From NCBI RefSeq assembly GCF_943192945.1, contig NZ_CALPCE010000003.1:124001-188000 (forward strand): 64,000 bases of DNA. The letters run 5' to 3'. The translations under genes and the position numbers were made by a program. Source of the stretch: Anaerocaecibacter muris. GTDB taxonomy: Bacteria; Bacillota; Clostridia; Christensenellales; Pumilibacteraceae. The notes under the pieces are model-generated. The model saw only the letters and a program-made list of their open reading frames with translations, made no database searches and was not told the DNA's origin. How positions within the stretch are numbered: position 1 is the stretch's first letter; the number at the start of each line of letters is the position of its first letter. This document shows positions 32,646 to 48,234 of this stretch, in pieces.

Positions 32646-33845
32646 TCAGTCTATGAGTTGGGCGAGGAAGCTCGCAATGGCGTCCAGTCCGCGCTCTATG
32701 TCTTTTTCGGACGCGGCGTAGGACAGACGGATATAGTCGGGCGCGCCGAAGCCCTCGCACGGTATAACCGCGACCTGCACTTGCTCCAAAAGCAACGACG
32801 CAAAGTCGTAAGCCGATCGTATGCGCTGACCTTCTATGCTCTTGCCCTCGAACTCCTTGACCGAAGCCATTACGTAAAACGCGCCCTTGGGCTCGATGTA
32901 CTTAATGCCCAAACGCTGTAACCGCAACATCATGAGCGCGCGCCGCGCGTCGAACGTTGCGCGCATGTCCTCCAAAAACGCGTCGCCGTGATACTTATCG
33001 GACAGCGCGACCGTGGACGCATACTGCGCAATGGTGTTGGCGTTGGACGTGCTGTGGCTTTGCATGCTCGACATTGCCGAGGCGATATGCTCGTCCGCCG
33101 CCGCGTACCCGACGCGCCAACCCGTCATGGAATACGTTTTGGACAGACCGTTGATGACGATAGTGCGTTCTTTCAATATATCCGAATACGCCGCTATGGA
33201 GTGGTGACGGCGTTCGTAAGTAAGTTTTTCGTAAATTTCGTCGGACACGACAAAAATTTCGTGCTTTTCGATAACCGCCGCCAACGCGTTAAGCTCGCTG
33301 CGCGTATAGACCGCGCCCGTCGGGTTGTTGGGGTTGTTGAGTATAAACGCCTTGGTCTTGTCGGTTATGGCTTTTTCCAGTTCGTCGGGCGTGAGTTTGA
33401 AACTGTTTTCGGGCTTGGTCTGCACGAACACGGGCACGCCGCCTGCCATTTTGACAAGCTCGGGATAGCTCAACCAGTACGGCGACGGTACAATAACTTC
33501 GTCGCCCGGTTCGAGTATCGCCATAAACGCGTTGAACAGCGAGTGCTTTGCGCCGTTGGACACGACGATATTGGACTTGTCGTAATCGAGCGCATTATCG
33601 TTTTTCAGCTTGGCGCAAATCGCGTTGCGAAGCTCGACCGTGCCCGCCGCGGGCGTGTACTTGGTCAGCCCCATTTCGAGCGCTTTATGCCCCGCCTCTA
33701 TTATGTAGTCGGGAGTGTTAAAGTCGGGCTCGCCCGCCGCAAACGACACGACGCGCATGCCGTCCGCTTTCATTTTTTTCGCGCGCGCCGTTATTTCGAG
33801 AGTGAGCGACGGCGAAATCTGTTTTGCTCTTTTTGCTATTTCCAC
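32646..33845 (-). CDS. aspC: Pyridoxal-phosphate aminotransferase, aspartate aminotransferase type
   Basis: 399 aa from a GTG at 33845. Fold-type I enzyme moving the amino group between aspartate or an aromatic acid and 2-oxoglutarate. PLP lysine in INGLSKTYSMTGWRVGY; substrate-binding FAAGEPDFNTP, NNPNNPTGAVY and a final arginine in IRLSYA. The start is set by a CAGGAGA site and by the promoter (33870-33898): its expected start near 33863 lies after the ATG at 33878, so that longer start cannot be used. Confidence 0.92.
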   Translation of the reverse strand: MEIAKRAKQISPSLTLEITARAKKMKADGMRVVSFAAGEPDFNTPDYIIEAGHKALEMGLTKYTPAAGTVELRNAICAKLKNDNALDYDKSNIVVSNGAKHSLFNAFMAILEPGDEVIVPSPYWLSYPELVKMAGGVPVFVQTKPENSFKLTPDELEKAITDKTKAFILNNPNNPTGAVYTRSELNALAAVIEKHEIFVVSDEIYEKLTYERRHHSIAAYSDILKERTIVINGLSKTYSMTGWRVGYAAADEHIASAMSSMQSHSTSNANTIAQYASTVALSDKYHGDAFLEDMRATFDARRALMMLRLQRLGIKYIEPKGAFYVMASVKEFEGKSIEGQRIRSAYDFASLLLEQVQVAVIPCEGFGAPDYIRLSYAASEKDIERGLDAIASFLAQLID

Positions 33846-33869
33846 GATGATATTCTCCTGTACGGATAT

Positions 33870-33898
33870 ATTATACACCGCCCCTTTGAAAAAATCAA
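33870..33898 (-). promoter_or_regulatory. Promoter of the aminotransferase gene
   Basis: TTGATT (33893-33898), 17-base spacer, TATAAT (33870-33875) on the minus strand. It gives an mRNA leader of about 18 bases carrying the CAGGAGA site. Confidence 0.75.
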
Positions 33899-33907
33899 GC
33901 CCTTGCG

Positions 33908-35014
33908 CTAATTGCCTGCAAACCGCGCAAACTTTTCGATAGACGCTTTATCGACGGACGGCTTGACCGTTTCGAGCGCGGACTGCACGTCCAACATGTT
34001 CAGCCCGCTCACCTCGCCCGTTCCGAGCGATCGGAACAGAGGCGCGTCGGTCGCACGGTCGATAAGCTCGGCAATGTCCGCGCCCGAAAATCCGTCCGTG
34101 CGCTCGGCTATATAATCGAAGTCTATATCGCCGTCGGTCTTGGTGTCCGCGAGTTTTTTGACAAGCATTGCTTTTCGCGCCGCCCTGTCGGGCAAGGGTA
34201 TATAAATCTTTTGACTGAACCGCCCCGATCGCATAGCCGCCTCGTCCACCGCCCACGGGTTGTTGGTCGCGCCCAGCACGGTAAGCCCCGCGCCGCCGCC
34301 CGAAAACCCGTCGATCTGCTGTAACAGCTCGTTGACGCGTCTGTCGTTGTGCACGTCCTGTCCGCGCTTGAAAAACAGCGAATCCAGCTCGTCGAAAAAT
34401 ATGACCGCGCGATCGTTCTTGCGCGCGGCGTCAAACAGCGCGGCGATATTTCGCTCGGACTCGCCCACCCATTTGGACACGACGTCCGAACACTTGACGG
34501 CATAGAACGCCGCTTTCGCTTCGTGCGCGGCGGCGCGTGCGAGCATGGTTTTTCCCGTCCCCGGCGGACCGTACAGCAACACTCCGCCGCCCGACTTTTT
34601 GCCGAGCGCGGCGTACACGTCGCCGTGTTCCATGGGATATATTATCTTGACGCGCAACGCGTTTTTCGCGTCGTCCAGTCCTATAACGTCGTCGAACGTC
34701 GTATCGGGAATTTCGGACGTGCAAAACTTATCGCCGCAAACGTCGTCATCGACGCTTTGCCCGCCGCCGCGCCGTTGCGGCTTGACGGGATCGGATTGCG
34801 GCAAGCCGTCGGCAATGGCGATTATGCGCTTGGCTCTGTCCACGCGCGCGGCTTTGAGCTTGTCGCCGGACATTTTGGCAAGCTCGGTCATAAGCTCCGC
34901 CGCCTGATAAAAATCGCGCTTCGCCTTGTTGTATCGCCCCGCGTTGCGCGCGGCGACGGCGGCTTTATACACCGTGTCGAACGTGCGTAAAAGATTGTCC
35001 TCTGCGGTCATCAT
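33908..35014 (-). CDS. Vps4-like AAA ATPase with MIT-like N-terminal domain
   Basis: 368 aa. Residues 7-70 look like a three-helix MIT domain (KAAVAARNAGRYNKAKRDFY, then AAELMTELAK), the module by which Vps4 grips ESCRT-III tails. The ATPase domain has Walker A GPPGTGKT (139-146), pore loop KWV in SKWVGESE (170-177), Walker B FFDE (186-189) and the Vps4-like IYIPLPD near 260. In eukaryotes and archaea Vps4 pulls ESCRT-III polymers apart. The start overlaps by 4 bases the stop of the Snf7-like gene just upstream. FtsH- and katanin-type AAA proteins are alternatives, but FtsH has a protease domain and this does not. Confidence 0.85.
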   Translation of the reverse strand: MMTAEDNLLRTFDTVYKAAVAARNAGRYNKAKRDFYQAAELMTELAKMSGDKLKAARVDRAKRIIAIADGLPQSDPVKPQRRGGGQSVDDDVCGDKFCTSEIPDTTFDDVIGLDDAKNALRVKIIYPMEHGDVYAALGKKSGGGVLLYGPPGTGKTMLARAAAHEAKAAFYAVKCSDVVSKWVGESERNIAALFDAARKNDRAVIFFDELDSLFFKRGQDVHNDRRVNELLQQIDGFSGGGAGLTVLGATNNPWAVDEAAMRSGRFSQKIYIPLPDRAARKAMLVKKLADTKTDGDIDFDYIAERTDGFSGADIAELIDRATDAPLFRSLGTGEVSGLNMLDVQSALETVKPSVDKASIEKFARFAGN

Positions 35015-35619
35015 TGTTCTAATTCCGCCCGCTCGCCTGTTTTTTCGGGCGCGCCCGCAACGTCCGCGTCGAATTCGTTTTCGGAATCGTACTGCTCTTG
35101 CATTTCAAACATGGCAAGAAGTTCGTCGTCCGACTTGTTGACCGCATAGATAGGGCTTGCGTCCGCGTCCGCCGCCTGTTCGTAAGCCTCGAACATTTCG
35201 TCCGCGCCGACGAGTGCGTTTTCCGCGGCGGTACGGTTTTGCACCGAGTTCTGCAAAAACTGCGCGAGCGCCTTTTGGTCGCACAACAGCTTGTTGAGCG
35301 GCAGTTTGGTCGTGTTCTCGATAAACCGATTATCGTCCACCGCGGCTTTAAGCCGTTCGAGAAGTTTGACGTTGTATAAAAGGAACGCCGCGCGCTTGGT
35401 GTCGCGCTTGATTTCCTCTTGCAAGGTGTTTACCTTTTTTGCACACAACAGCTTGACGTCGCGGTTTTTCTCTTTGCGTCCGCGCTCCAACAACCGCTCG
35501 ACCTCCTCGGACTTTTGCAGTATGCCGTTTTCCAAATCCTCTTGCTGTTTGGTCTGATCGATTATCGCATTGACAACGTCCTCGCGTTTCAGCTTTTTAA
35601 ACTTGTTGCGTCCGAACAT
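35011..35619 (-). CDS. Snf7/ESCRT-III-like helical protein
   Basis: 202 aa, not assigned by a strong motif. Order of features copies ESCRT-III subunits: a basic N-terminus with a hydrophobic start (MFGRNKFKKLKRE), a long helical hairpin rich in Lys and Glu (12-92, containing LLERGRKEKNRDVKLLCAKK), shorter helices (95-150), then an acidic tail with DDELLAMFEMQ (164-174), similar in place and charge to the Snf7 helix 5 and MIT-interacting motifs. Isoelectric asymmetry (basic front, acidic back) is also typical. AAAGGAG site. PspA/Vipp1 proteins, the known bacterial relatives, lack such an acidic tail. Homology must be tested by structure prediction. Confidence 0.6.
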   Translation of the reverse strand: MFGRNKFKKLKREDVVNAIIDQTKQQEDLENGILQKSEEVERLLERGRKEKNRDVKLLCAKKVNTLQEEIKRDTKRAAFLLYNVKLLERLKAAVDDNRFIENTTKLPLNKLLCDQKALAQFLQNSVQNRTAAENALVGADEMFEAYEQAADADASPIYAVNKSDDELLAMFEMQEQYDSENEFDADVAGAPEKTGERAELEQ

Positions 35620-35861: not shown

Positions 35862-36188
35862 CTAATTGTACGATTCGCGTTCCGCTAACGCGAGTTCGAG
35901 GTTTTTTACTGTTTCCTCGGCTTGCAAAAGTCCGCGATCGCCGCCCTTGCACAGTGCGATTTTGAGATCGCCCGCAAGCGCGTTTATTTTTTTATCGACT
36001 TGAATCGCGCCGACCGTCACGGTGGGCACGGTGTAGCGCGCGCGATCGTAAACTTTGGCGATACGGTCTTTAATATCGCCTTCGGCAATTTCGGCGCACA
36101 CGCGCAGTAATCGCGCGTTGTCCTCCGTAAGTTCGCGGTTCTCTTTTAATATTTCCTTTTTATCGGGTGAAGAAAAACAAAATCCCAT
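35862..36188 (-). CDS. Small helical protein of unknown function
   Basis: 108 aa, starting MGFCFSS and then mostly helical, with many charged residues (KEILKENRELTEDNARLL) and a hydrophobic middle (YTVPTVTVGAIQVD). No known motif. CGGAGG site before the ATG. It lies 25 bases after the SPFH gene and before the repeat array, so it is probably part of the same transcript. A distant similarity to XpaC-like helical proteins is possible but weak. Confidence 0.6.
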   Translation of the reverse strand: MGFCFSSPDKKEILKENRELTEDNARLLRVCAEIAEGDIKDRIAKVYDRARYTVPTVTVGAIQVDKKINALAGDLKIALCKGGDRGLLQAEETVKNLELALAERESYN

Positions 36189-36213: not shown

Positions 36214-37053
36214 CTATTTTACGATTTTCGCGCCGCACTGCGAACAGAACTTGGCGTCCGCGTCGAGTTTTGCGCCGCACTTGCCGCAAACAGCGGGCGC
36301 AAGCGACGCGCCGCACTCCGAACAAAACTTGCACGCCGCGCCCATTACCGCGCCGCAGGACGGACAGGCTTTACCCGTCTTGCCCAGCTCGTCGCGCTTG
36401 CGCTCGATAGCCATAATATCCGCGTCCGAAATTATCGCGCCCGCGACCGTGAACGAACAAAGTTCCAGCCCGTATTCGGCTGTAAAAATTTCGCCGAGCT
36501 TGACTTTGAGTTTGTCGGATATAACCTGCTTCTTTTCCGAAAACTCGGTGTAGCTTATGCGCTCGGCGCGCATGACCTCGGTCACAATCGGCTCGACGAC
36601 GTTGACAAGTCGCGTCAACAACCGCTTTTTTAGCTTATCCACGCTGTATTCGCTGTCCGCGCCCACCAGCTCCAAATAGAACTGCTTTGGCGTTTTTACG
36701 CGAAATTCAAGCTCGCCGTTTATGCCGATAGACACGGGCACGCCCGTAATGGGGTCGCGCGCGCGTATGGGCGAAGCCGTGCCCCACAGCATGGGCAGTT
36801 TGGCGGACTTGGATATAAACACAAACTCGACCGACGCGACGTCGCTGTCCTTTTTAAGACGGAACAATCCGTTCTCGGTGTCGAAAATATCGTGCCTGCC
36901 CGCAGACAACGCCTCGGACACCACGCCGTCTTTTATGAGCAAAACGGTATGCGTTTCGGGCACAATCACTTGCGCCGACGCGTGCAGTTCGTCCGCGCTC
37001 TCGCGGCAAAACAGCTCCGTATTGCTTCCCGTAAATTTGACTAATTCCGCCAT
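36214..37053 (-). CDS. SPFH-domain protein with C-terminal zinc ribbons (YdjI-like)
   Basis: 279 aa. Residues 20-205 form an SPFH/band-7-like domain (KDGVVSEALSAGRHDIF, then INGELEFRVKTPKQFY), as in B. subtilis YdjI, which helps place the ESCRT-III relative PspA on the membrane. The last 55 residues hold two zinc ribbons (CPSC...CSEC and CGKC...CSQC). No membrane helix. It starts 2 bases after the TIR gene stop, so they are coupled. The neighbourhood suggests that it may position the Snf7-like protein. Confidence 0.85.
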   Translation of the reverse strand: MAELVKFTGSNTELFCRESADELHASAQVIVPETHTVLLIKDGVVSEALSAGRHDIFDTENGLFRLKKDSDVASVEFVFISKSAKLPMLWGTASPIRARDPITGVPVSIGINGELEFRVKTPKQFYLELVGADSEYSVDKLKKRLLTRLVNVVEPIVTEVMRAERISYTEFSEKKQVISDKLKVKLGEIFTAEYGLELCSFTVAGAIISDADIMAIERKRDELGKTGKACPSCGAVMGAACKFCSECGASLAPAVCGKCGAKLDADAKFCSQCGAKIVK

Positions 37054-37055
37054 GA

Positions 37056-39497
37056 TTATCTCCTATTGATATTTTTGAATCTGTTTAGATTTATGCCTTC
37101 CAAAATTATCGCTATTATAGTAAACACCTGCGTCGTTACGCCGAGCGCGTGCTCCGCATGCACCTGCGGGAAAAACATCACGCCGCTGACTAACAGTATC
37201 GTCAATATGCCCGCCGTAAGATTGACGGCGGTGAGCGTCTGTATTTTCGCGTTTTTGTACGACAGGTTAATTCCGTCGTTGGCAATGCGGACTATGCTCG
37301 CCGTCAAAAGCATTGCGCAAATTACTTGCCCGCTGTCGTCGTAATCTATCAGCATGAAAAGCGCGGACGCGAAAAATATATACGACAACGCCGCGGTCAC
37401 GACGCACGCGACCGTCCGCGCGTAACCCATTGTCTTTTTTATTAACGCCTGTTGCGTGCGCATGACCTCGGCACGCTTATCCGCAGAAATCTTTTTTTGA
37501 CGGTTGGATTCGAGCAAATCGACAAGCATGTCGTAATCGCGCTTTTGCGCGTCGGTCGCAAGCGACTGCGCCAGCATAAAATATTCGTTCGTGGAAATAT
37601 CGACGGTCGAAGCGCGCAACTGACTTTCGGTCATGTTTAAGCCCGCGAGCATCTTTCGGAAATACAACAACGATGAATAGTAATTATACACGTCAACGGG
37701 CAATATGTTTTTGTTGTCCACAAGATAGTCGCACAGCTTGCCGTCGTTCGATCGGTTCTTAATGCGCTCGCGCAAAAACATCTCCGCGTTTTTGGCAACG
37801 GTGTCGCGCGCCTTGCGGTATTCCGCGACCTGCGCAGGCGACGCATACTTTAACGCCTTTTGGTATTCCGTTTCGCGCGTCACGTCCTCGACGCAAACAA
37901 GCCAGTTTTGCCCGTACTTCGCCCACAGTTTGAGCCAATAATATCTGCTCGCAATGTCGGGAAACTTGCGGTAGATAATTCCGTCGTCCGCGGCGAATAC
38001 TCCGTCGCACCGCGCAAGCACGGCGGACATTGCCGCATAGTTTTCCGCTTTAAACAGTTTATCGGCTTCGTCGAGATCGGCTGTAACCGTTTTTACGGCG
38101 CGCGTGCGTAATGTTTCGCCCGCGACGGTTATGCGCCGCTCAAACGTCGGGTCGTTGTGCGCGTACCGCTCGGCGGTCTTGTAGTATCTGTGCGAAGAAA
38201 AGTCAATGCCGCTGTTCAAAAGCGCGGCGTCGTCGGGCATGCGGTAATCGCACAGCATCAACAGCCACCACGCTACGGCGCACTCGGGATCGCAGTCCAA
38301 AGCCTCGTCGATAATGGCGCTCGCCTTGTCGTAGTTTTGCGCAAGTATTTCTATTTCCGCGCGCTTTAACCTCGACCGCACGGCGTAAGCGGGCGCGGCG
38401 GTCGCCGCTATTTCGCCCGAAACAATACGTTCCAAACGGTCGAGCCGCTCTTGTTCCCTAACCCTGCGCTCCTCGGCTATAAGCCGTTCTTTCTCGCGCG
38501 CGGACAAACGCTTTTCTTCGAGCTCGGCTTTCTCGCGCTCGTCGCGGGCGAGTATGCCGCGAACGTCCACGACAAGCTGTTCGAGATGCGAATACGGGTC
38601 GTCTTGCGCGTCCAGCCACTGTACGGACGACAACGCTTTTTCAAACGCGCCGTCGTAAGGCGTGTCGTCTATGCGAAAACTGTAAAGCGCTTTGCCTTCG
38701 AGCACCGCCGCTTTGAGTTCCTTTTCGCAGTCCTCGGAATATATGGATTTAAAGCTGGAAACAAGCAGAAAAAGTCGGCTGTTTTCCACGCCTTTCAAAA
38801 TATCGCGTTCGTAATTTTGCGACCCCGCAAGGATATTGCGCGGCGCAATCCAACACCGCAACCCCCGCTCTTCCAGCCGCGTGCAAATGGCGTCGGCTAT
38901 GTCCTGATCGGGCTCGGCGGTGCGATGGCATATAAACACATCGCGATCCGTGACCCTGGCGTAACGAAGTTTTTGTATGTACGACTTGATGTTGCGATCG
39001 AGTATCGCGTCGAATCCGCGACAGGTCGAGGGGTACGCTCGCGCAATAAACTGTTTCGTTATGTCGAGGTACTTGGGTTCGACAGCCGCGACAAGCGCGG
39101 TCGTCACCTCTTTAAGCTCGTCGGTTGTTACGCCCGAGAAACTCGCATTGCGCAAAAAATCATTGAACGCAACGTCGTTGTCCGAATACCTGTCGGCAAG
39201 CGCGACGTAAAACATCGCGCAAAAATCGTCGGGCAGAACGGACAATATCTTTTGCGCGAACAGCTTTACGCCGCCGTAATCGCGCGCCTTGTTGCTGTCC
39301 TGCTGTAAGCGCAACTGCTTCGCCAAATACTCCCGCCATGCACGAACGTCCTGCGTGCGATCGAGAGTAACTTTGGAGAACGCAACGGCGCGCGGTACGT
39401 TGAACGTGCTTCCGCACGCCTCGCACTTGCAAAACTCGCCCGAACCGTCGGGTATGACAGCGGAACTTCCGCAGTTTGTACACCTAACCTGCTCCAT
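37056..39497 (-). CDS. Zinc-ribbon, TIR, TPR and membrane protein
   Basis: 813 aa. Domains in order: zinc ribbon (CTNC at 6-9, CEAC at 25-28); helical region; TIR domain (184-310) with DVFICHR, CWIAPRNILAG and CEKEL, where E260 falls at the catalytic glutamate of NAD-cleaving TIR domains; coiled coil (315-350); TPR-like repeats (370-480); helical region; and four membrane helices near the C-terminus (705-800). Many bacterial TIR proteins cleave NAD in phage defence. Here the TIR is fixed to the membrane and linked to SPFH and Snf7-like genes. No clear Shine-Dalgarno; the promoter gives a leader of only about 6 bases. Confidence 0.85.
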   Translation of the reverse strand: MEQVRCTNCGSSAVIPDGSGEFCKCEACGSTFNVPRAVAFSKVTLDRTQDVRAWREYLAKQLRLQQDSNKARDYGGVKLFAQKILSVLPDDFCAMFYVALADRYSDNDVAFNDFLRNASFSGVTTDELKEVTTALVAAVEPKYLDITKQFIARAYPSTCRGFDAILDRNIKSYIQKLRYARVTDRDVFICHRTAEPDQDIADAICTRLEERGLRCWIAPRNILAGSQNYERDILKGVENSRLFLLVSSFKSIYSEDCEKELKAAVLEGKALYSFRIDDTPYDGAFEKALSSVQWLDAQDDPYSHLEQLVVDVRGILARDEREKAELEEKRLSAREKERLIAEERRVREQERLDRLERIVSGEIAATAAPAYAVRSRLKRAEIEILAQNYDKASAIIDEALDCDPECAVAWWLLMLCDYRMPDDAALLNSGIDFSSHRYYKTAERYAHNDPTFERRITVAGETLRTRAVKTVTADLDEADKLFKAENYAAMSAVLARCDGVFAADDGIIYRKFPDIASRYYWLKLWAKYGQNWLVCVEDVTRETEYQKALKYASPAQVAEYRKARDTVAKNAEMFLRERIKNRSNDGKLCDYLVDNKNILPVDVYNYYSSLLYFRKMLAGLNMTESQLRASTVDISTNEYFMLAQSLATDAQKRDYDMLVDLLESNRQKKISADKRAEVMRTQQALIKKTMGYARTVACVVTAALSYIFFASALFMLIDYDDSGQVICAMLLTASIVRIANDGINLSYKNAKIQTLTAVNLTAGILTILLVSGVMFFPQVHAEHALGVTTQVFTIIAIILEGINLNRFKNINRR

Positions 39498-39725: not shown

Positions 39726-41570
39726 TTATATATTACATTTTACGTCCGCGTCGCTCGGCATGCGCCAATCCGACCGCGGCGAGAACGAAACCGATCCTAT
39801 TTTAACGCCGTCGGGAAGGCACGACCGTTTGAACTGCGCGGCGAAAAAGCGTTTATAAAACACGTCCATAGTTTTTTCGCGTTGCGATTTATCGACCTCG
39901 GGAAAAGCAAGTCCCAACAGGTACGAAATTTTTTCGCGCGTAAACCCGAACCGACAATAATAATAGATAATAAAATCGTGCAAGTCGTACTTGCCCAAAA
40001 TATCTTCCGTTTTTTGCGCTATCTTGCCGTTTTCGGGCGGCAACAGCTCGGGCGAAATTTCGGTGTCGAGAATATCATGCAACGCCGCTTGCGCTTGTCC
40101 GCCCAGTCTTTCCGCTTCGTATCTTATAAGATATTTAACAAGTGTTTTGGGCACGCCTGCGTTCACGCCGTATGACGACATGTGATCGCCGTTGTACGTC
40201 GCCCAGCCGAGCGCAAGTTCGCTCAAATCTCCCGTTCCGACAACCAGTCCGCCCTCGGCGTTCGCTATATCGAACAACGTCATTGTGCGGGTGCGCGCCT
40301 GCGCGTTTTCATACGTGACGTCCTTGTCGGTGTGCTTAATATCTTTTAAATGGCTGTCTACCGTATTTTTGACGTCCACCGTAATCAGCTTAACGCCCAT
40401 AGCGGCGCACAGCTTTTCCGCATTGCTTTTTGTTTTTGCCGTCGTGCCGAAACACGGCATTGTCACTGCCGTGACCTTGTTCTTTCCGACCGCGCGCACG
40501 CTTACCGCGAGCGCAAGCGCGGAATCCAGCCCGCCCGAAACGCCTATAACCGCGGTTTTTGCGCCCGTCGCCGCAAAACGCGTCGCAAGCCCGCGCGCCT
40601 GCATTGTTAATATCAGCTCTGCGCGCTTGCCGTCGTCGCCGACGGGAACAAACGGGTACTTTTCCGGTATGCGGTGCGGCTGTTGCGCCGCGCCGTCGCC
40701 CAGCGAGAACGCAACGGTGGAAAACGTCTTTGCGCTCGGCTTGACGCCCGCTTTGCGCCTGTCCGCATCCACACGCTCCACGTCGATTTCGGTGACGGCA
40801 AGCCCGTTCGCAAACGGTTCGCTTTCGGCTATGACCGCGCCGTTTTCGGCTATTATGTTGTGTCCGGAATACACCGCGTCCGTGGACGATTCGCCACGAC
40901 CCGCGTCTGAATAAACGTAAGCGCAACGCTGTCTGCCCGACGCGCCCGCCACAAGCAATTTACGGTATTCGGCTTTGCCCACCACCTCGTCGCTCGCCGA
41001 CAGGTTGACGACGACCGTCGCACCCGCGCGGCACGCCTCGACGCTCGGCGGCATGTCCGACCACATATCCTCGCAAATTTCGCAAGCTATAACAAGCGAC
41101 CGATGACCGACGCATTTAAACAGTATATTGCCCATAGGCGCGTTTAACGCTTCGCACGTCGCAACGCCGTCGAACGCGGGCGCGAAGTATCGCGGTTCGT
41201 AAAACTCGCCGTAATCGGGAAGTTCGGTCTTGGGCACAACCCCTATCACCGCGCCGCCCGAAACAGCGACCGCGCAGTTGTAAAGCCGCCCCTCATGCTC
41301 GACGGGCGCGCCGATAAACGCTATTGCGTTTTGCGGGGTCGCCGCCGCAACGGTCTTGACGGCTTGGATCGCGCCGTCCAACAGACTGCGCGAAAAAAAC
41401 AAGTCGGCGGCGGTGTAGCCCGTAACGCACAGCTCGGGAAACACTATAATTTCCGCGCCCTGTTTGACAAGCTCGGCTATGCGCGCCGAAATTTCCCGCG
41501 CGTTGTTTTGTGGATTGCCCACCTTGATTGTCGGCGTAACAGCCGCCGCTCTGACCATGCCGTATTTCAT
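39726..41570 (-). CDS. nadE: Glutamine-dependent NAD+ synthetase
   Basis: 614 aa enzyme for the last step of NAD synthesis, amidating nicotinate adenine dinucleotide. The N-terminal nitrilase-type glutaminase domain (1-270) has the triad E46, K114 and C166 (in CEICEDMW). The C-terminal ATP-pyrophosphatase domain has GVSGGLDSALAL near residue 345. Length matches the two-domain form. GGGAGG site before the ATG. It lies next to the TIR gene, whose domain type consumes NAD; this may be chance because a terminator separates them. Confidence 0.95.
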   Translation of the reverse strand: MKYGMVRAAAVTPTIKVGNPQNNAREISARIAELVKQGAEIIVFPELCVTGYTAADLFFSRSLLDGAIQAVKTVAAATPQNAIAFIGAPVEHEGRLYNCAVAVSGGAVIGVVPKTELPDYGEFYEPRYFAPAFDGVATCEALNAPMGNILFKCVGHRSLVIACEICEDMWSDMPPSVEACRAGATVVVNLSASDEVVGKAEYRKLLVAGASGRQRCAYVYSDAGRGESSTDAVYSGHNIIAENGAVIAESEPFANGLAVTEIDVERVDADRRKAGVKPSAKTFSTVAFSLGDGAAQQPHRIPEKYPFVPVGDDGKRAELILTMQARGLATRFAATGAKTAVIGVSGGLDSALALAVSVRAVGKNKVTAVTMPCFGTTAKTKSNAEKLCAAMGVKLITVDVKNTVDSHLKDIKHTDKDVTYENAQARTRTMTLFDIANAEGGLVVGTGDLSELALGWATYNGDHMSSYGVNAGVPKTLVKYLIRYEAERLGGQAQAALHDILDTEISPELLPPENGKIAQKTEDILGKYDLHDFIIYYYCRFGFTREKISYLLGLAFPEVDKSQREKTMDVFYKRFFAAQFKRSCLPDGVKIGSVSFSPRSDWRMPSDADVKCNI

Positions 41571-43738: not shown

Positions 43739-45466
43739 TCAAACGGGAATCCATACAATATTGACCCATGCTTTGACGCCTGCCCCGATTACGGCGTCAA
43801 ACTCTGCCTGAGTAGTCAAAACCTTGTCGCCGTTTTCCGTCGTAGTAACTCCGCCGAACTTGTAGCCTAATCTCACAGGTTCCCAATCGGGGTGGAAAAT
43901 AGCAGAGGAAATATATGCGGCTTTTAAATAAGCATAACCGTCGGCATACCCGACCTTTATATTATCGCCCATATAACAATTTATAGCTGTTTTTTTATTA
44001 CACACCGCATTTTCGGGAAGCGTTGCATTCACCACTGCCTTTGTTATATCTTCTACAGAAAAGGCGTGGTCGCCTACATACTCCACATTTTCGGGGATGT
44101 ATCTGGTTACCCAGTTATAACAAGAAAAAAACGCGCGATCACCGATGTGCGTAACGGTAGTAGGGATAATAAAATCTTTAATGCCGCTATATGCAAACGC
44201 ATAATCTCCGATTTTACGCACGCTTTGCGGAATAACAGACGACGGGAATCCGGCAACCAGCTCATCGCCTTTTTTATTGAGCAAACAATTATTTCGGCTC
44301 GAAAACACGGGATTGTCCTCGCTTACAGTCAATTCGGTAAGACTGTCGCAGTCGCTTAAAGCCCCAGTCTTGATAACCGTAACCGTACTCGGAATATACA
44401 ATGACTTTAATCTATGGCAGGAAACGAACGCATTGACTCCTATTGACGTTATGCCCTCTTCTATAATTACTTTTTCCACGAGTGACATCATAAAAGCGCT
44501 ATTGCCTATCTCGCGCAATCTGCTCGGCAATACAATTTCCTTTACTACGCTACCATGGAAAGCAGGTTCGTAAATTTCCGTAACATAATCGGGAATTACG
44601 CAATTTGCCAAGCCGTACATAAGTTTGTTGTCGCTCTTGCGTATTATACAGTTGTTGTCGACATTATAAACGGTATTTTCTTCGTCCACAGTGACCGAAA
44701 GTTCCGAACAATGCTGAAAAGCGGGTAATATACTCGTTACTTTTGCGGGAATATGCAATTCTTTTAACGATTTACAACCGAAAAATACATTCCCCTTTAT
44801 TGTAGTAACATAATCGGGAATATTTACGCTCTCCAATTTATAGCAATTTTGAAATAAAGAACCGCTTAACTCTTTAAGGTACTTCGGCAACACTACGCTT
44901 CGCAGATTAGTACAAGCCACAAACGCACCGTTTCCTATAATGTTTATACTGTCGGGTATAACAATGTCAGTAATTTCCGAACAGCCCGCAAACGCTTCTC
45001 TGGCTATTTCCACAACAGGACGATCATTTAAGGTATCCGGCAATTTTATATATCCTCGCGCACTATCGGGCTTGCATTTATACACGCAATATGCCGAGCC
45101 GTCGTCCGTTAGTTTAAACGCAATTTTAGGAGTACTAATATTAAGCGCCGTCGAATATTCGGAATCCGCATATTTTTTTCCGTCGCCCACCGCTTTCACC
45201 TGAAAATCGTATATATTACTGTCGTCTTGCGTAAACGGAATAATATTGATGCTCGCTTCCGCCGCCTCGAATTCTTTGCCGTTGACGCTTACGATAAACT
45301 TATCCGCTTCCAACATTTCGTTCCACGTAAGAATAGAACCGTTTAACGCAAGACCTTCGGGCGCGGGCAGTTTTTTGGGTCCGTCGTCTTTGCCGCATGC
45401 GAAACATACCAAAGACAATATGCACGCCGCGACCGCAAGTAACAAGCATTTGATTTTACGCGTCAT
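43739..45466 (-). CDS. BspA-like leucine-rich-repeat lipoprotein
   Basis: 575 aa. Signal peptide and lipobox (CFAC, Cys 24), then a fibronectin III-like domain (35-110), then about 14 BspA/TpLRR repeats (140-490) of the form I-x-x-x-A-F-x-x-C-x-x-L, and a C-terminal domain (500-575). Surface LRR proteins of this kind bind host or microbial ligands. Base composition is more AT-rich than the flanks. AGGAGG site before the ATG. It follows the secreted protein gene by 22 bases and may be co-transcribed. Confidence 0.88.
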   Translation of the reverse strand: MTRKIKCLLLAVAACILSLVCFACGKDDGPKKLPAPEGLALNGSILTWNEMLEADKFIVSVNGKEFEAAEASINIIPFTQDDSNIYDFQVKAVGDGKKYADSEYSTALNISTPKIAFKLTDDGSAYCVYKCKPDSARGYIKLPDTLNDRPVVEIAREAFAGCSEITDIVIPDSINIIGNGAFVACTNLRSVVLPKYLKELSGSLFQNCYKLESVNIPDYVTTIKGNVFFGCKSLKELHIPAKVTSILPAFQHCSELSVTVDEENTVYNVDNNCIIRKSDNKLMYGLANCVIPDYVTEIYEPAFHGSVVKEIVLPSRLREIGNSAFMMSLVEKVIIEEGITSIGVNAFVSCHRLKSLYIPSTVTVIKTGALSDCDSLTELTVSEDNPVFSSRNNCLLNKKGDELVAGFPSSVIPQSVRKIGDYAFAYSGIKDFIIPTTVTHIGDRAFFSCYNWVTRYIPENVEYVGDHAFSVEDITKAVVNATLPENAVCNKKTAINCYMGDNIKVGYADGYAYLKAAYISSAIFHPDWEPVRLGYKFGGVTTTENGDKVLTTQAEFDAVIGAGVKAWVNIVWIPV

Positions 45467-45488
45467 AAAGACCTCCTACGCAAAGATG

Positions 45489-46946
45489 TTAAAACACGCC
45501 GTATAAATTATTGAACATTTCTATATCGTCCTCAAAACAATTTCGGAAAATATAATCTTGATCGTCCCCCGCAAAATCGATCAACCACCCGTCGCCTTCA
45601 ACAAAAGGTTTTGACGTAATTTCACAACGCCCCTCCCAATTATTGTGATTGCTCAAAAATTCTCTGTTAAATAAAAAGTCATAGATTATGGGATACAAAT
45701 ATTGCGCCATACGGTATTTGTCCAACCCCGCGGTGTACGCCGCCGAACATGATTCGCTCGTTAAACTTTCGTTTTCTATAAATACGTATTTATCGATTAC
45801 TATCGCGTATCTGTCTTCCGTAAATGTCAAAACTTCCATCAATTCTTCGCTAATGCCCTGTCGCGTCGTACCTATAAAATATACTTTATTTTCGTTAAAA
45901 TAATCTTCCAAATCCCTTACGTTATAATCGTTTGGATCAAGGACATATTTATTCCAATTACAAATATCAAAAAATTCATAGCCTTGGATATGACATAAAA
46001 TACGAATGTTGCATATATTGAGTACATTTATATTAAATTTGTATTCATCGTATATGCAATACATTCCCTTTACCAATCGGATAAACGGTATCAACGTACT
46101 GTCAACAAATCCGTATCGATTAAGTAACCATGTGCCATTGTGATATTCCCTTTCGGCATTTACTGTATATCTTTCTCCGTCGTGAGCAAACTGCGATAAA
46201 TCGCTATCGAGAATAATAACAGAATTATCTACGCCGTAATCTTTAAAATGACTGAATACAGTGTTCATAAAATAAGAATAAATATCGGTATTTACATGAA
46301 TATCCACATAGTCCAAAAAGCTGTTATGACCGTAAGATTCATACAGATGCTCGTCGGTACCGCAGACAAACATTATTTTGCAACCGTTATTGTGTAATAC
46401 TTTGAAAATTTGTTCCAGATAATCAGTTACGACATAACCGATATTGTCGGGAACTTGTATAGGAAACAGTTTGCGCGTTTCAAAAATTACAAGCGAATTA
46501 TATAAAGAGCTATAATCGTGCGCTCCGCCCCACAGCTCGTAATCGTAAAAATCATACATGGAACTGCCGAACCGCGCGGGGACGTAATCGTCGTCCGATT
46601 GTGTTCCTTTCGATTCCAAATCGTACCAATAAAATCCGTTGAAAACGGTGTGCATTTGAGAATAAATATCCACCATCTCCCGCATAAAAAGATTTACGTA
46701 CAGTTCGCTTTCTGCGTTATCCGTAAAATAATAAATACTTTCATAGCATTGTTCTTCTTCGTATTGATTGCACACATGATCGTAAAAGTCGTTCGGCAGG
46801 TCTACCTGCCAACCCTCTTGCTCGCCGTCGTCCCACTCGTCCGCACGCACGCCGCGCGGCATGGTGACTAAAAGTCCGATAAGCAAAGCTATAACCGTTG
46901 CCGCCACCGCCGCTATGCGAAGTTTGATATTTGTCTTAACGTACAC
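45489..46946 (-). CDS. Secreted protein of unknown function
   Basis: 485 aa from a GTG with a GGAGG site 6 bases upstream. A signal peptide or N-terminal anchor (about 8-30) ends near GVRA, followed by an acidic mature protein rich in Tyr, Asp and Asn. Parts resemble alpha/beta enzymes (CKIMFVCGTDEHLYESYGHN, DNSVIILDSDLSQFAHDGER), but no family was recognised. It leads a two-gene unit with the LRR lipoprotein, so both may act at the cell surface. Confidence 0.75.
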   Translation of the reverse strand: MYVKTNIKLRIAAVAATVIALLIGLLVTMPRGVRADEWDDGEQEGWQVDLPNDFYDHVCNQYEEEQCYESIYYFTDNAESELYVNLFMREMVDIYSQMHTVFNGFYWYDLESKGTQSDDDYVPARFGSSMYDFYDYELWGGAHDYSSLYNSLVIFETRKLFPIQVPDNIGYVVTDYLEQIFKVLHNNGCKIMFVCGTDEHLYESYGHNSFLDYVDIHVNTDIYSYFMNTVFSHFKDYGVDNSVIILDSDLSQFAHDGERYTVNAEREYHNGTWLLNRYGFVDSTLIPFIRLVKGMYCIYDEYKFNINVLNICNIRILCHIQGYEFFDICNWNKYVLDPNDYNVRDLEDYFNENKVYFIGTTRQGISEELMEVLTFTEDRYAIVIDKYVFIENESLTSESCSAAYTAGLDKYRMAQYLYPIIYDFLFNREFLSNHNNWEGRCEITSKPFVEGDGWLIDFAGDDQDYIFRNCFEDDIEMFNNLYGVF

Positions 46947-46969
46947 CGTTACCTCCGTTGCAAAAATTT

Positions 46970-47000
46970 ACGGCGGCGCAAAAACCATTGCGACGCCGTT
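46970..47000 (-). promoter_or_regulatory. Leader hairpin of the secreted-protein gene
   Basis: ACGGCGGCGCAA and TTGCGACGCCGT form 11 pairs with one mismatch, then AAATTTTTG on the minus strand, then the ribosome binding site. It lies between the promoter and the gene and could attenuate transcription. Confidence 0.5.
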
Positions 47001-47026
47001 GTCTTTTTACACTATATATTTTCACA

Positions 47027-47055
47027 ATATTATCATATCGCGACAAATATGTCAA
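47027..47055 (-). promoter_or_regulatory. Promoter of the secreted-protein/LRR-lipoprotein unit
   Basis: TTGACA (47050-47055), 17-base spacer, TAATAT (47027-47032) on the minus strand. The leader of about 75 bases contains the hairpin at 46970-47000. Confidence 0.65.
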
Positions 47056-47175
47056 CAAAATTAGATATGTTTTTATTGTTTATTTTTGTATATTTTTGTA
47101 ACTGTGGTTAAAAACGACATAAACCCTGCCGTTTCGTATATTTTATGACGTTAAACTCGCCGATGTGACTTGTTT

Positions 47176-48234
47176 TTAAAACCCGCAGGCGGTTATTGCG
47201 ACGCCCAAACTTGCCGAAAGGACGAACATGACGGCTATTATCATGAGCGTGTTTTTGACGGGACGGTTTTGCTTGACAAGCACCGCATAGCCTATCCCCG
47301 CGCCCACGCACAGCCCAGCGACCGCGCCGCCCAAATTGAGTCCGCCCACTACGTACAGTTCGGTTAGGATTACCGACGCCGCGCAGTTGGGGATTAGCCC
47401 CACCGCCGCCGCAAGCACCGGTTGCAAGTACCCCGTCGCGCCGATAAACTCCGCCAGCCTGCGCTCGCCCACATAATACACCGTTATCCCGAACGCGATA
47501 TTCACAATCAGTATATACAATATCACCGTCGCCGTGTGTGTCAACGGGTGCTTTAAATATCTGTTCCACACAAACTTCGCTTTTTGCGATCTCGTCGCGT
47601 GCTCGTCGGGTTCTGCGTACTCCTCGCCGCACAAATCGTGCCTGTGACAACCGTGTATATGCACTCGACCTTCGCTGTGCTCGTGCTTATGTCCGTGCGC
47701 ATGCTCTTGTTCTTGCGCGTCGTCGTTTCCGTGCGCGTGTTCGGCTTCGCGCTCTTGTGCATGCTCGTGAGTTTCGATTTTCGTCGTTGTATACTGCGTG
47801 CAGGTTTGAGCGTTCTCGTGCTTGCTACGCGAATTTTTAGCCGCTAATTTTTCGACGGCGAACGCCGCATACCCGACAATGAGCGCAAAGCACACTTTTA
47901 TAATGAGCACGGGCAAGAGTTTTGTAACGCCCGCGTAACTGGACAGCATTATCGGCAACGCTTCGTCGGACGTTGCTATATACACTGCGAGGAGCGTGCC
48001 GAGCGCGATTTTGCGCTTGGCGTACAGTTCGGTCGCGACGACCGAAAAACCGCACTGCGGCACGACGCCCACGCCCGTGCCGATTAACGGCGCAAGCCCG
48101 CCTTTTAAAATTCCGCGCGCGTTCAAGCCGTCCGATTTGTATTCCAACAGCTCTATCAGAAAGTTCATTATCAGCAGGAACGGCAGGACTTTGAGCGTGT
48201 CCAAAAACGCGTCCAAAAAGACTTCGCCCATCAC
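47176..48234 (-). CDS. Putative heavy-metal exporter, DUF2899/ArsP_2-type, with His-rich loop
   Basis: 352 aa membrane protein with two halves of about four helices each, related by an internal repeat: GVGVVPQCGFSVVATELYA (near 55) and GLIPNCAASVILTELYV (near 290). Between them is a cytoplasmic or external loop (150-225) packed with His, Glu and Asp (HEHAQEREAEHAHG, HAHGHKHEHSEG), likely to bind metal. The family is thought to export metals or metalloids such as manganese or arsenicals. Its start overlaps the DUF815 stop by 4 bases. Confidence 0.75.
   Translation of the reverse strand: MMGEVFLDAFLDTLKVLPFLLIMNFLIELLEYKSDGLNARGILKGGLAPLIGTGVGVVPQCGFSVVATELYAKRKIALGTLLAVYIATSDEALPIMLSSYAGVTKLLPVLIIKVCFALIVGYAAFAVEKLAAKNSRSKHENAQTCTQYTTTKIETHEHAQEREAEHAHGNDDAQEQEHAHGHKHEHSEGRVHIHGCHRHDLCGEEYAEPDEHATRSQKAKFVWNRYLKHPLTHTATVILYILIVNIAFGITVYYVGERRLAEFIGATGYLQPVLAAAVGLIPNCAASVILTELYVVGGLNLGGAVAGLCVGAGIGYAVLVKQNRPVKNTLMIIAVMFVLSASLGVAITACGF

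Follow-up and report, generated by a model that had tools for sequence, protein, structure and literature searches.

A candidate ESCRT-III/Vps4-like membrane-remodelling cassette in the bacterium Anaerocaecibacter muris

The stretch of DNA considered here (the window) comprises 64,000 nucleotides of Anaerocaecibacter muris (contig NZ_CALPCE010000003.1, positions 124,001 to 188,000) and belongs to contig 3 of the host genome (1.97 Mb, 95.7% complete). It carries the gene of an AAA ATPase with an MIT-like N-terminal domain (P0001), the overlapping gene of a 202 amino acid helical protein (P0002), and genes for a small helical protein (p3), an SPFH protein and a TIR protein. The locus probably represents one version of an ESCRT-III/Vps4-like cassette for membrane remodelling in bacteria, which is recruited by the SPFH protein, remodelled by the MIT-AAA ATPase, and often found beside TIR genes. 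The original prediction for this DNA held that P0001 and P0002 by themselves form a complete pair of polymer and remodeller; this is unsupported at 33908-35619 because the clear similarity to ESCRT-III sits in a second family of proteins (family 2) outside the window, although such a pair does appear across the two loci of the host and within single loci of its relatives. The idea of linked ESCRT-III-like and Vps4-like genes is partly supported, in altered form.

Family 2 and its linkage to MIT-AAA genes

Family 2 is a group of helical proteins of ~190 amino acids encoded, in more distant loci, between the relatives of P0002 (family 1) and the ATPase gene; in the host genome it is absent from the window and occurs on contig 11 as two tandem copies, with a second MIT-like AAA gene after them. 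On sequence grounds family 2 is ESCRT-III. The hhalign comparison of 39 members with seven known ESCRT-III proteins gives 94.5% with a score of 55.1 over 148 columns, and remains at 94.5-95.6% over four alignment settings; none of 150 column shuffles scores as high (the best reaches 15.1), reversing the template lowers the value to 0.17%, and two known ESCRT-III classes set against each other, as a yardstick, reach 82.6% in the same set-up. The family is closer to the CHMP1/2/3 type (88.4%) than to the Snf7/CHMP4 type (17.1%). Snf7 is also the Pfam family matched by most members (17/39 at E<=1, best 2.5e-8); among 10 members rescanned, those at L083 (34.2 bits) and L085 (28.4 bits) pass the Snf7 gathering score of 27.3 bits, one reaches 18.7 bits, and the other seven lack a Snf7 match at E 0.01. 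PspA was considered as an alternative identity for family 2 and is unsupported, at 1.6-3.7% (four PspA rows) against the 94.5% obtained with ESCRT-III. A search of solved structures with the first family-2 profile returned chance-level matches (best E 0.12).

The C-terminal tails of family 2 carry the feature expected of MIT-binding ESCRT-III proteins: a MIM1-like core of the form [DE]xx[LIM]xx[LIVM][KR] lies near the end of 20/39 members, compared to a mean of 2.2 and a maximum of 7 in 500 shuffles. The two host copies miss the strict pattern while having similar-looking tails, and neither matches the Pfam Snf7 model at E 1e-3. Across 398 genomes of the phylum this model gives 10 weak matches at E<=1e-3, none above the cut-off and none in the host genome; such silence is not read as absence, because two family-2 members elsewhere do pass the cut-off. 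Fusions also occur in this family; L088:5966-7633 encodes a family-2 domain joined to a RuvB-like AAA domain (24.5 bits with Snf7 at full length), and L089:4791-7325, near three family-2 genes, encodes a RuvB-like protein whose N-domain gives a weak MIT-like match.

The linkage of P0002 and the ATPase is more than chance. The prediction that the two genes would be linked in relatives holds, as an MIT-AAA gene on the same strand is found no more than 6 kb from 25 of 26 family-1 genes, L026 being the exception; for family 2 the figure at this distance is 36/39, the genes without an MIT-AAA neighbour being L090, L091 and L093 (the last near a contig end). These counts omit L016 and L027, which duplicate L015 and L014, and are separate from L137-L145, which were fetched afterwards. 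Of the latter, L144 and L145 hold family-1 copies with SPFH and p3 genes and without the ATPase, bringing the overall figure to 25/28; L137-L139 hold six further family-2 genes with MIT-AAA genes, and L140 and L141 combine family 2 with an AAA gene that has no MIT-domain match at E 1e-4. The copies at L144:5636-7523 and L145:6782-8724 are second copies in genomes G281 and G130, lack family 2, and adjoin a zinc-ribbon-like protein recognized by eye; in two further genomes (G032 and G033) MIT-AAA genes stand amid unrelated genes with neither family 1 nor family 2 (L142:5894-6940 and L143:6006-7061). Beside the 26 family-1 genes are found SPFH (23), p3 (23), family 2 (19) and TIR (13) genes, and the commonest order is SPFH-zinc ribbon, p3, family 1, family 2, MIT-AAA. 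Other neighbours of these modules include BrxL-like proteins (L020:3653-5089 by Pfam, L026:11242-12675 by eye), a RelA/SpoT-domain protein (L091:5224-6456) and a trypsin-like protease (L024:11702-12463).

With P0002 as the query, matches are found in 13/74 genomes of the taxonomic family, host included. Among 248 genomes of the order, family 2 is detected in 27 and family 1 in 18 (both at E<=1e-3), and the MIT-like domain in 23 (E<=1e-6); all 18 family-1-positive and all 23 MIT-positive genomes fall within the 27 that are positive for family 2 (Fisher p 4e-21 and 1e-28, respectively). In the 398 phylum genomes family 2 is present in two, the host and one weak case (E 9e-4). No relative of family 1 was found in viral contigs, where 50 pattern matches yielded none that was confirmed; searches of plasmids and of phages likewise brought up no family-2 relative. 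In the genomes sampled, the system looks confined to the order of the host.

The locus in the window

The ATPase gene and the P0002 gene are both found at their predicted positions, and the predicted four-base overlap between them is the sequence ATGA at 35011-35014, in which the TGA stop of the P0002 gene and the ATG start of the ATPase gene share bases. The genes for p3, P0004 and P0005 lie upstream of P0002 and run in the same direction as the ATPase gene. The features of the locus are:

33908..35014, minus strand: P0001, MIT-like and AAA ATPase of Vps4/CDC48 type, 368 amino acids (Pfam AAA and AAA_lid_3; NCBIfam CdvC)
34799..35014, minus strand: MIT-like three-helix N-terminal domain of P0001, residues 1-72 (AlphaFold2 model; family-level Pfam MIT; PDB profile)
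35011..35619, minus strand: P0002, family 1 helical protein, 202 amino acids (AlphaFold2 hairpin; linkage; weak profile link to family 2)
35095..35151, minus strand: conserved tail motif IY..N..DD.LLAMFE of P0002, residues 157-175 (invariant residues in the alignment)
35862..36188, minus strand: P0003 (p3), small helical protein, 108 amino acids (found via its family profile)
36214..37053, minus strand: P0004, SPFH (Band_7_1) protein with C-terminal zinc ribbons, 279 amino acids (Pfam)
37056..39497, minus strand: P0005, zinc ribbon - TIR - TPR-like - membrane protein, 813 amino acids, candidate effector (Pfam, PADLOC)
32646..33878, minus strand: aminotransferase, downstream housekeeping flank (named by eye)
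39726..41570, minus strand: NAD synthetase, upstream housekeeping flank (named by eye)

P0001 is, by its sequence features, laid out like Vps4. The motifs GPPGTGKT (residue 149), KWVGESE (181), FFDELD (206) and IYIPLPD (270) are present, Pfam assigns AAA (E 5.6e-40) and AAA_lid_3 (E 3.1e-11), and the AlphaFold2 model places exactly three helices (4-24, 28-48 and 51-70) in the N-terminal stretch, so that the predicted combination of three helices, KWVGESE and IYIPLPD is confirmed; the N-terminal block is modelled at a pLDDT of 74-91 within a poor overall model (mean 55.5, from three sequences). The pore loop is of Vps4 type (KWMGESE in yeast Vps4, PDB 5uie), although such a motif is not exclusive to Vps4 because the D2 domain of p97 has MWFGESE. 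The best NCBIfam model is CdvC (E 3.8e-62, residues 16-364) at 210 bits, far under the equivalog cut-off of 650; the Vps4 C-terminal domain (PF09336) scores 17.6 bits, below its cut-off of 21.3; and in a tree of 20 AAA rows with long branches and yeast as the one Vps4, the P0001 family is not joined to Vps4, which groups with other known AAA proteins at 98/97. Orthology to Vps4 is unsupported because both scores fall below their cut-offs and the tree does not join the two. Some cassette ATPases are ~700 amino acids long and have an additional AAA domain of SpoVK/CbxX type.

The MIT-like domain assigned to the ATPase by the original prediction finds support at the level of the family; P0001 searched as a single sequence has no MIT match. 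Among 31 members of the N-domain family, three match Pfam MIT at E<=1, and MIT gives the best Pfam E of the family (1.1e-6; 29.1 bits, just below the cut-off of 30). The N-domain profile searched against the PDB finds a designed protein on top (5.4e-5), then the chitin synthase 1 entry 2mpk (5.6e-4), another protein, and the 'hypothetical p60 katanin' entry 2w2u (E 0.063); 2mpk and 2w2u are presumably MIT domains. Compared directly with the MIT domain of yeast Vps4, the family reaches an insignificant 2%.

P0002 has the basic front, helical hairpin and DDELLAMFEMQ tail that had been ascribed to it. The AlphaFold2 model (mean pLDDT 69.2) predicts a hairpin of helices 12-49 and 53-104 followed by helices 108-113, 115-151 and 164-187; a hydrophobic-basic N-terminus recurs in many rows of the family-1 alignment, and residues I157, Y158, L168 and F171 are invariant across its 26 sequences. 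Profiles of family 1 and family 2 compare at 0.8-6.8% alone and at 23-70% once three positional analogues are added. With these features P0002 is a candidate divergent ESCRT-III-like subunit. Snf7 is not among the matches listed (25 of 51 Pfam families) for the 26 members, and a search of solved structures with P0002 gave chance-level matches (best E 1.3). An assignment of family 1 to PspA is unsupported at 0.5% (four PspA rows). Genes encoding ~345 amino acids at other loci may be fusions of p3 and family 1, as suggested by position and one 47% p3 match; the indications are otherwise weak.

Of the upstream proteins, P0004 matches Band_7_1 (E 1.7e-16) and Zn_Ribbon_1 (E 5.8e-12) in Pfam; P0005 matches Pfam TIR_2 (E 4.1e-17) and the PADLOC model ThsB (9.1e-6), with its TPR and membrane parts assigned from a weak match and by eye; and p3 has no match in a Pfam scan. 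An 18-base repeat, CGGCGGTTCGCCTTGATT, occurs twice in the gap before P0002 (35620-35861); across the window there are five copies at <=2 mismatches compared to 0.01 expected. An Rfam search gave no match, and promoter- and terminator-like sites are no more frequent than at the shuffled level. Elsewhere in the window, 44001-48000 has a GC content of 0.433 compared to 0.50-0.58 outside it, and holds a leucine-rich-repeat-like lipoprotein and a large secreted-type protein, both named by eye.

The chromosomal site of the cassette is fixed within the genus. The aminotransferase next to the ATPase is present in 20/20 genus genomes; upstream of it lies an MIT-AAA gene in five (G000, which is the host, G003, G008, G017 and G019), and in G018 an open reading frame (ORF) followed by the cassette on the same contig (L017). 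The site is empty in 6/20, with the NAD synthetase directly beside the aminotransferase; in the rest, what lies upstream of the aminotransferase is a DnaX-like ORF (four genomes) or an SPFH-like ORF (three), both named by eye, or a contig end (one).

Proposed mechanism and competing explanations

From this arrangement we infer a mechanism that covers polymer formation, membrane binding, contact between the MIT-like domain and the tails, the direction of function, and the roles of the SPFH and TIR proteins. The SPFH-zinc-ribbon protein would sit on or mark the membrane and bring in family 1 and p3; a precedent exists in Bacillus subtilis, where the membrane recruitment of PspA, an ESCRT-III homologue, requires YdjI (PMC8581546). 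Family 1 may then contact the membrane through its hydrophobic-basic N-terminus and begin a polymer, which family 2 (next door in relatives, the tandem pair on contig 11 in the host) would join. Through its MIT-like domain the ATPase is predicted to bind family 2 by the MIM1-like tails, and may also bind family 1 by its IY..DDxLLAMFE tail; it would then pull subunits out by their tails, leading to constriction, repair or disassembly. The TIR and other effector-like neighbours suggest a tie to membrane-damage or phage response.

Several results weigh against an ESCRT-III/Vps4-like cassette in the window. P0002 has no match of any kind in Pfam; family 1 compared with known ESCRT-III gives an hhalign value of 1.8%, and the match to a Snf7/CHMP profile is lacking; the co-occurrence of family 1 and the MIT-like domain with family 2 is partly built in, because the profiles were made from such loci. 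P0002 had been predicted to be a Snf7-like ESCRT-III protein, and of this the hairpin is modelled, but the expected agreement of 35011-35619 with Snf7 fails by both Pfam and hhalign, and in a fold search with the model the ESCRT-III match is no better than that to bMERB domains, which fit as well or better. Such results favour family 1 as a helical protein that serves the MIT-AAA ATPase as an adaptor or delivers substrates to it, with the polymer formed by family 2 alone, as do the MIM1-like core being found in 0/26 family-1 tails and the six genomes in which family 1 directly adjoins the ATPase with no family 2 between. Contrary to an adaptor role, the modelled hairpin with its further helices is ESCRT-III-like, many rows of the alignment share the hydrophobic-basic N-terminus, and the profile link to family 2 of up to 70% with positional analogues is reached in 0/60 shuffles; this role is considered rather unlikely. 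It is possible, if somewhat short of probable, that the cassette serves mainly for immunity or suicide, with an ESCRT-like part that senses or repairs phage membrane damage and a TIR protein that kills. The TIR genes beside 13/26 family-1 genes are consistent with this, as are the BrxL, trypsin-like and RelA/SpoT-domain neighbours seen in single loci, the TIR-NB-ARC protein beside a second locus in G019 described below, and the way the cassette is present in some genomes and missing from others at one fixed site in the chromosome; PADLOC, however, has no match for P0002, P0003 or P0004, and for three family-2 proteins nothing better than 0.0063, the searches of viral contigs for family 1 and of plasmids and phages for family 2 yielded no relative, and the second locus sits among der, plsY and spoIVA.

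The MIT-like domain might instead be a TPR-type bundle and the ATPase a CDC48-like unfoldase of an unrelated complex. TPR_8 is commoner than MIT among the N-domains (10/31, best E 0.0019), CDC48 at 206 bits is close behind CdvC, and the AAA tree does not join Vps4; yet the best Pfam E among the N-domains belongs to MIT, the modelled N-domain consists of three helices only, and the partner, family 2, is by sequence ESCRT-III with MIM1-like tails, so that this explanation is regarded as improbable. The alternative offered with the original prediction, an envelope stress operon of PspA/Vipp1 type whose AAA protein is a general unfoldase, is highly improbable. The SPFH-zinc-ribbon partner does resemble that of the B. 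subtilis pspA operon, and PspA is a member of the ESCRT-III superfamily according to the available passages of the papers on it; against these stand the low PspA values of both families (0.5% and 1.6-3.7%, from the four rows noted above) beside the ESCRT-III value of family 2, the presence of MIM1-like tails and an MIT-like domain, and the lack of any PspA at E 1e-10 in the host genome.

A second locus near spoIVA is found in the host, G003, G008 and G019 (L030 on contig 11 of the host and L137-L139 in the others, L138 being that of G019), in the order der, plsY, two family-2 genes and MIT-AAA, with spoIVA beyond; SpoIVA was identified by Pfam in three and by tblastn in G019, and plsY and der by Pfam in the host and by tblastn in the others. 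In G008 and G019 the first of the two family-2 proteins carries a fused FtsK/SpoIIIE domain (4.9e-29 and 2e-28); it is 429 amino acids long in G003, without a Pfam match at E 1e-3, and 214 in the host; the same type of fusion occurs in G049 (1.6e-45). In G019 a 1107 amino acid TIR - NB-ARC - APAF1-type protein (L138:10390-13713) lies between the second-locus ATPase and spoIVA. The gene order in four genus genomes and the FtsK/SpoIIIE fusion in two prompt the more far-reaching proposal, which is considered improbable, that a true two-subunit ESCRT-III/Vps4-like machine coupled through MIT and MIM1 exists in some spore-gene-bearing bacteria, with one copy helping to form the spore or the septum. 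A part in bacterial membrane scission is suggested by the FtsK fusion next to spoIVA; were the spore or septum reading true, this would be ESCRT-type scission at a bacterial septum.

Comparison with known systems

In the available passages of the literature, ESCRT-III plus Vps4 systems are described as confined to archaea and eukaryotes (PMC10936438) and bacteria as being without a clear Vps4 homologue (PMC7615534). Bacterial ESCRT-like pairs are nevertheless not a new idea, because the accessible text of PMC11237479 already places bacterial genes of Snf7 and PspA type close to other AAA+ ATPases, and tells of Vps4-like ATPases transferred to bacteria with displacement of snf7 there. The cassette of MIM1-like tails, MIT-like ATPase, SPFH protein and family 1 is absent from those passages of PMC11237479, and searches of the open-licence PMC literature, preprints lying outside that scope, listed no description of an SPFH-family 1-family 2-MIT-AAA cassette. 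Bacteria may possess a membrane-sculpting machine that they were thought to lack; if so, a bacterial ESCRT-III with MIM1-like tails beside an MIT-AAA ATPase would change the known range of this partnership, provide a small system to study, and make transfer from archaea as opposed to retention since a common ancestor testable.

The cassette resembles archaeal CdvB/CdvC and Asgard ESCRT-IIIA/B-Vps4 in having one or more ESCRT-III genes next to a gene of MIT-AAA type, and two distinct helical subunits of which the CHMP1/2/3-type one carries the MIM1-like tail; it differs in its bacterial host, in its TIR and effector-like neighbours, and in an AAA domain that is not placed with Vps4 in a small tree. 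The archaeal Meth_adaptin ESCRT loci, in the part of PMC10936438 available, likewise join an SPFH-coiled-coil-zinc-ribbon protein with Vps4 and ESCRT-III; their markers adaptin-like, GOLD and ProX are not among the Pfam matches of the proteins scanned here, no search having been aimed at them. The bacterial neighbourhoods in the PMC11237479 passages share Snf7-clade proteins near AAA+ genes, but either have a transmembrane segment and are accompanied by genes of ABC transporter and OmpA type, or combine PspA and an AAA protein with an inactive first domain. The B. subtilis pspA-ydjGHI operon, as far as the available passages of PMC8581546 and PMC11237479 describe it, also pairs a Band-7/SPFH zinc-ribbon protein with a member of the ESCRT-III superfamily, this being PspA instead of a Snf7-like protein, and no MIT-AAA is described with it; the shared SPFH partner links the cassette to known membrane-stress biology.

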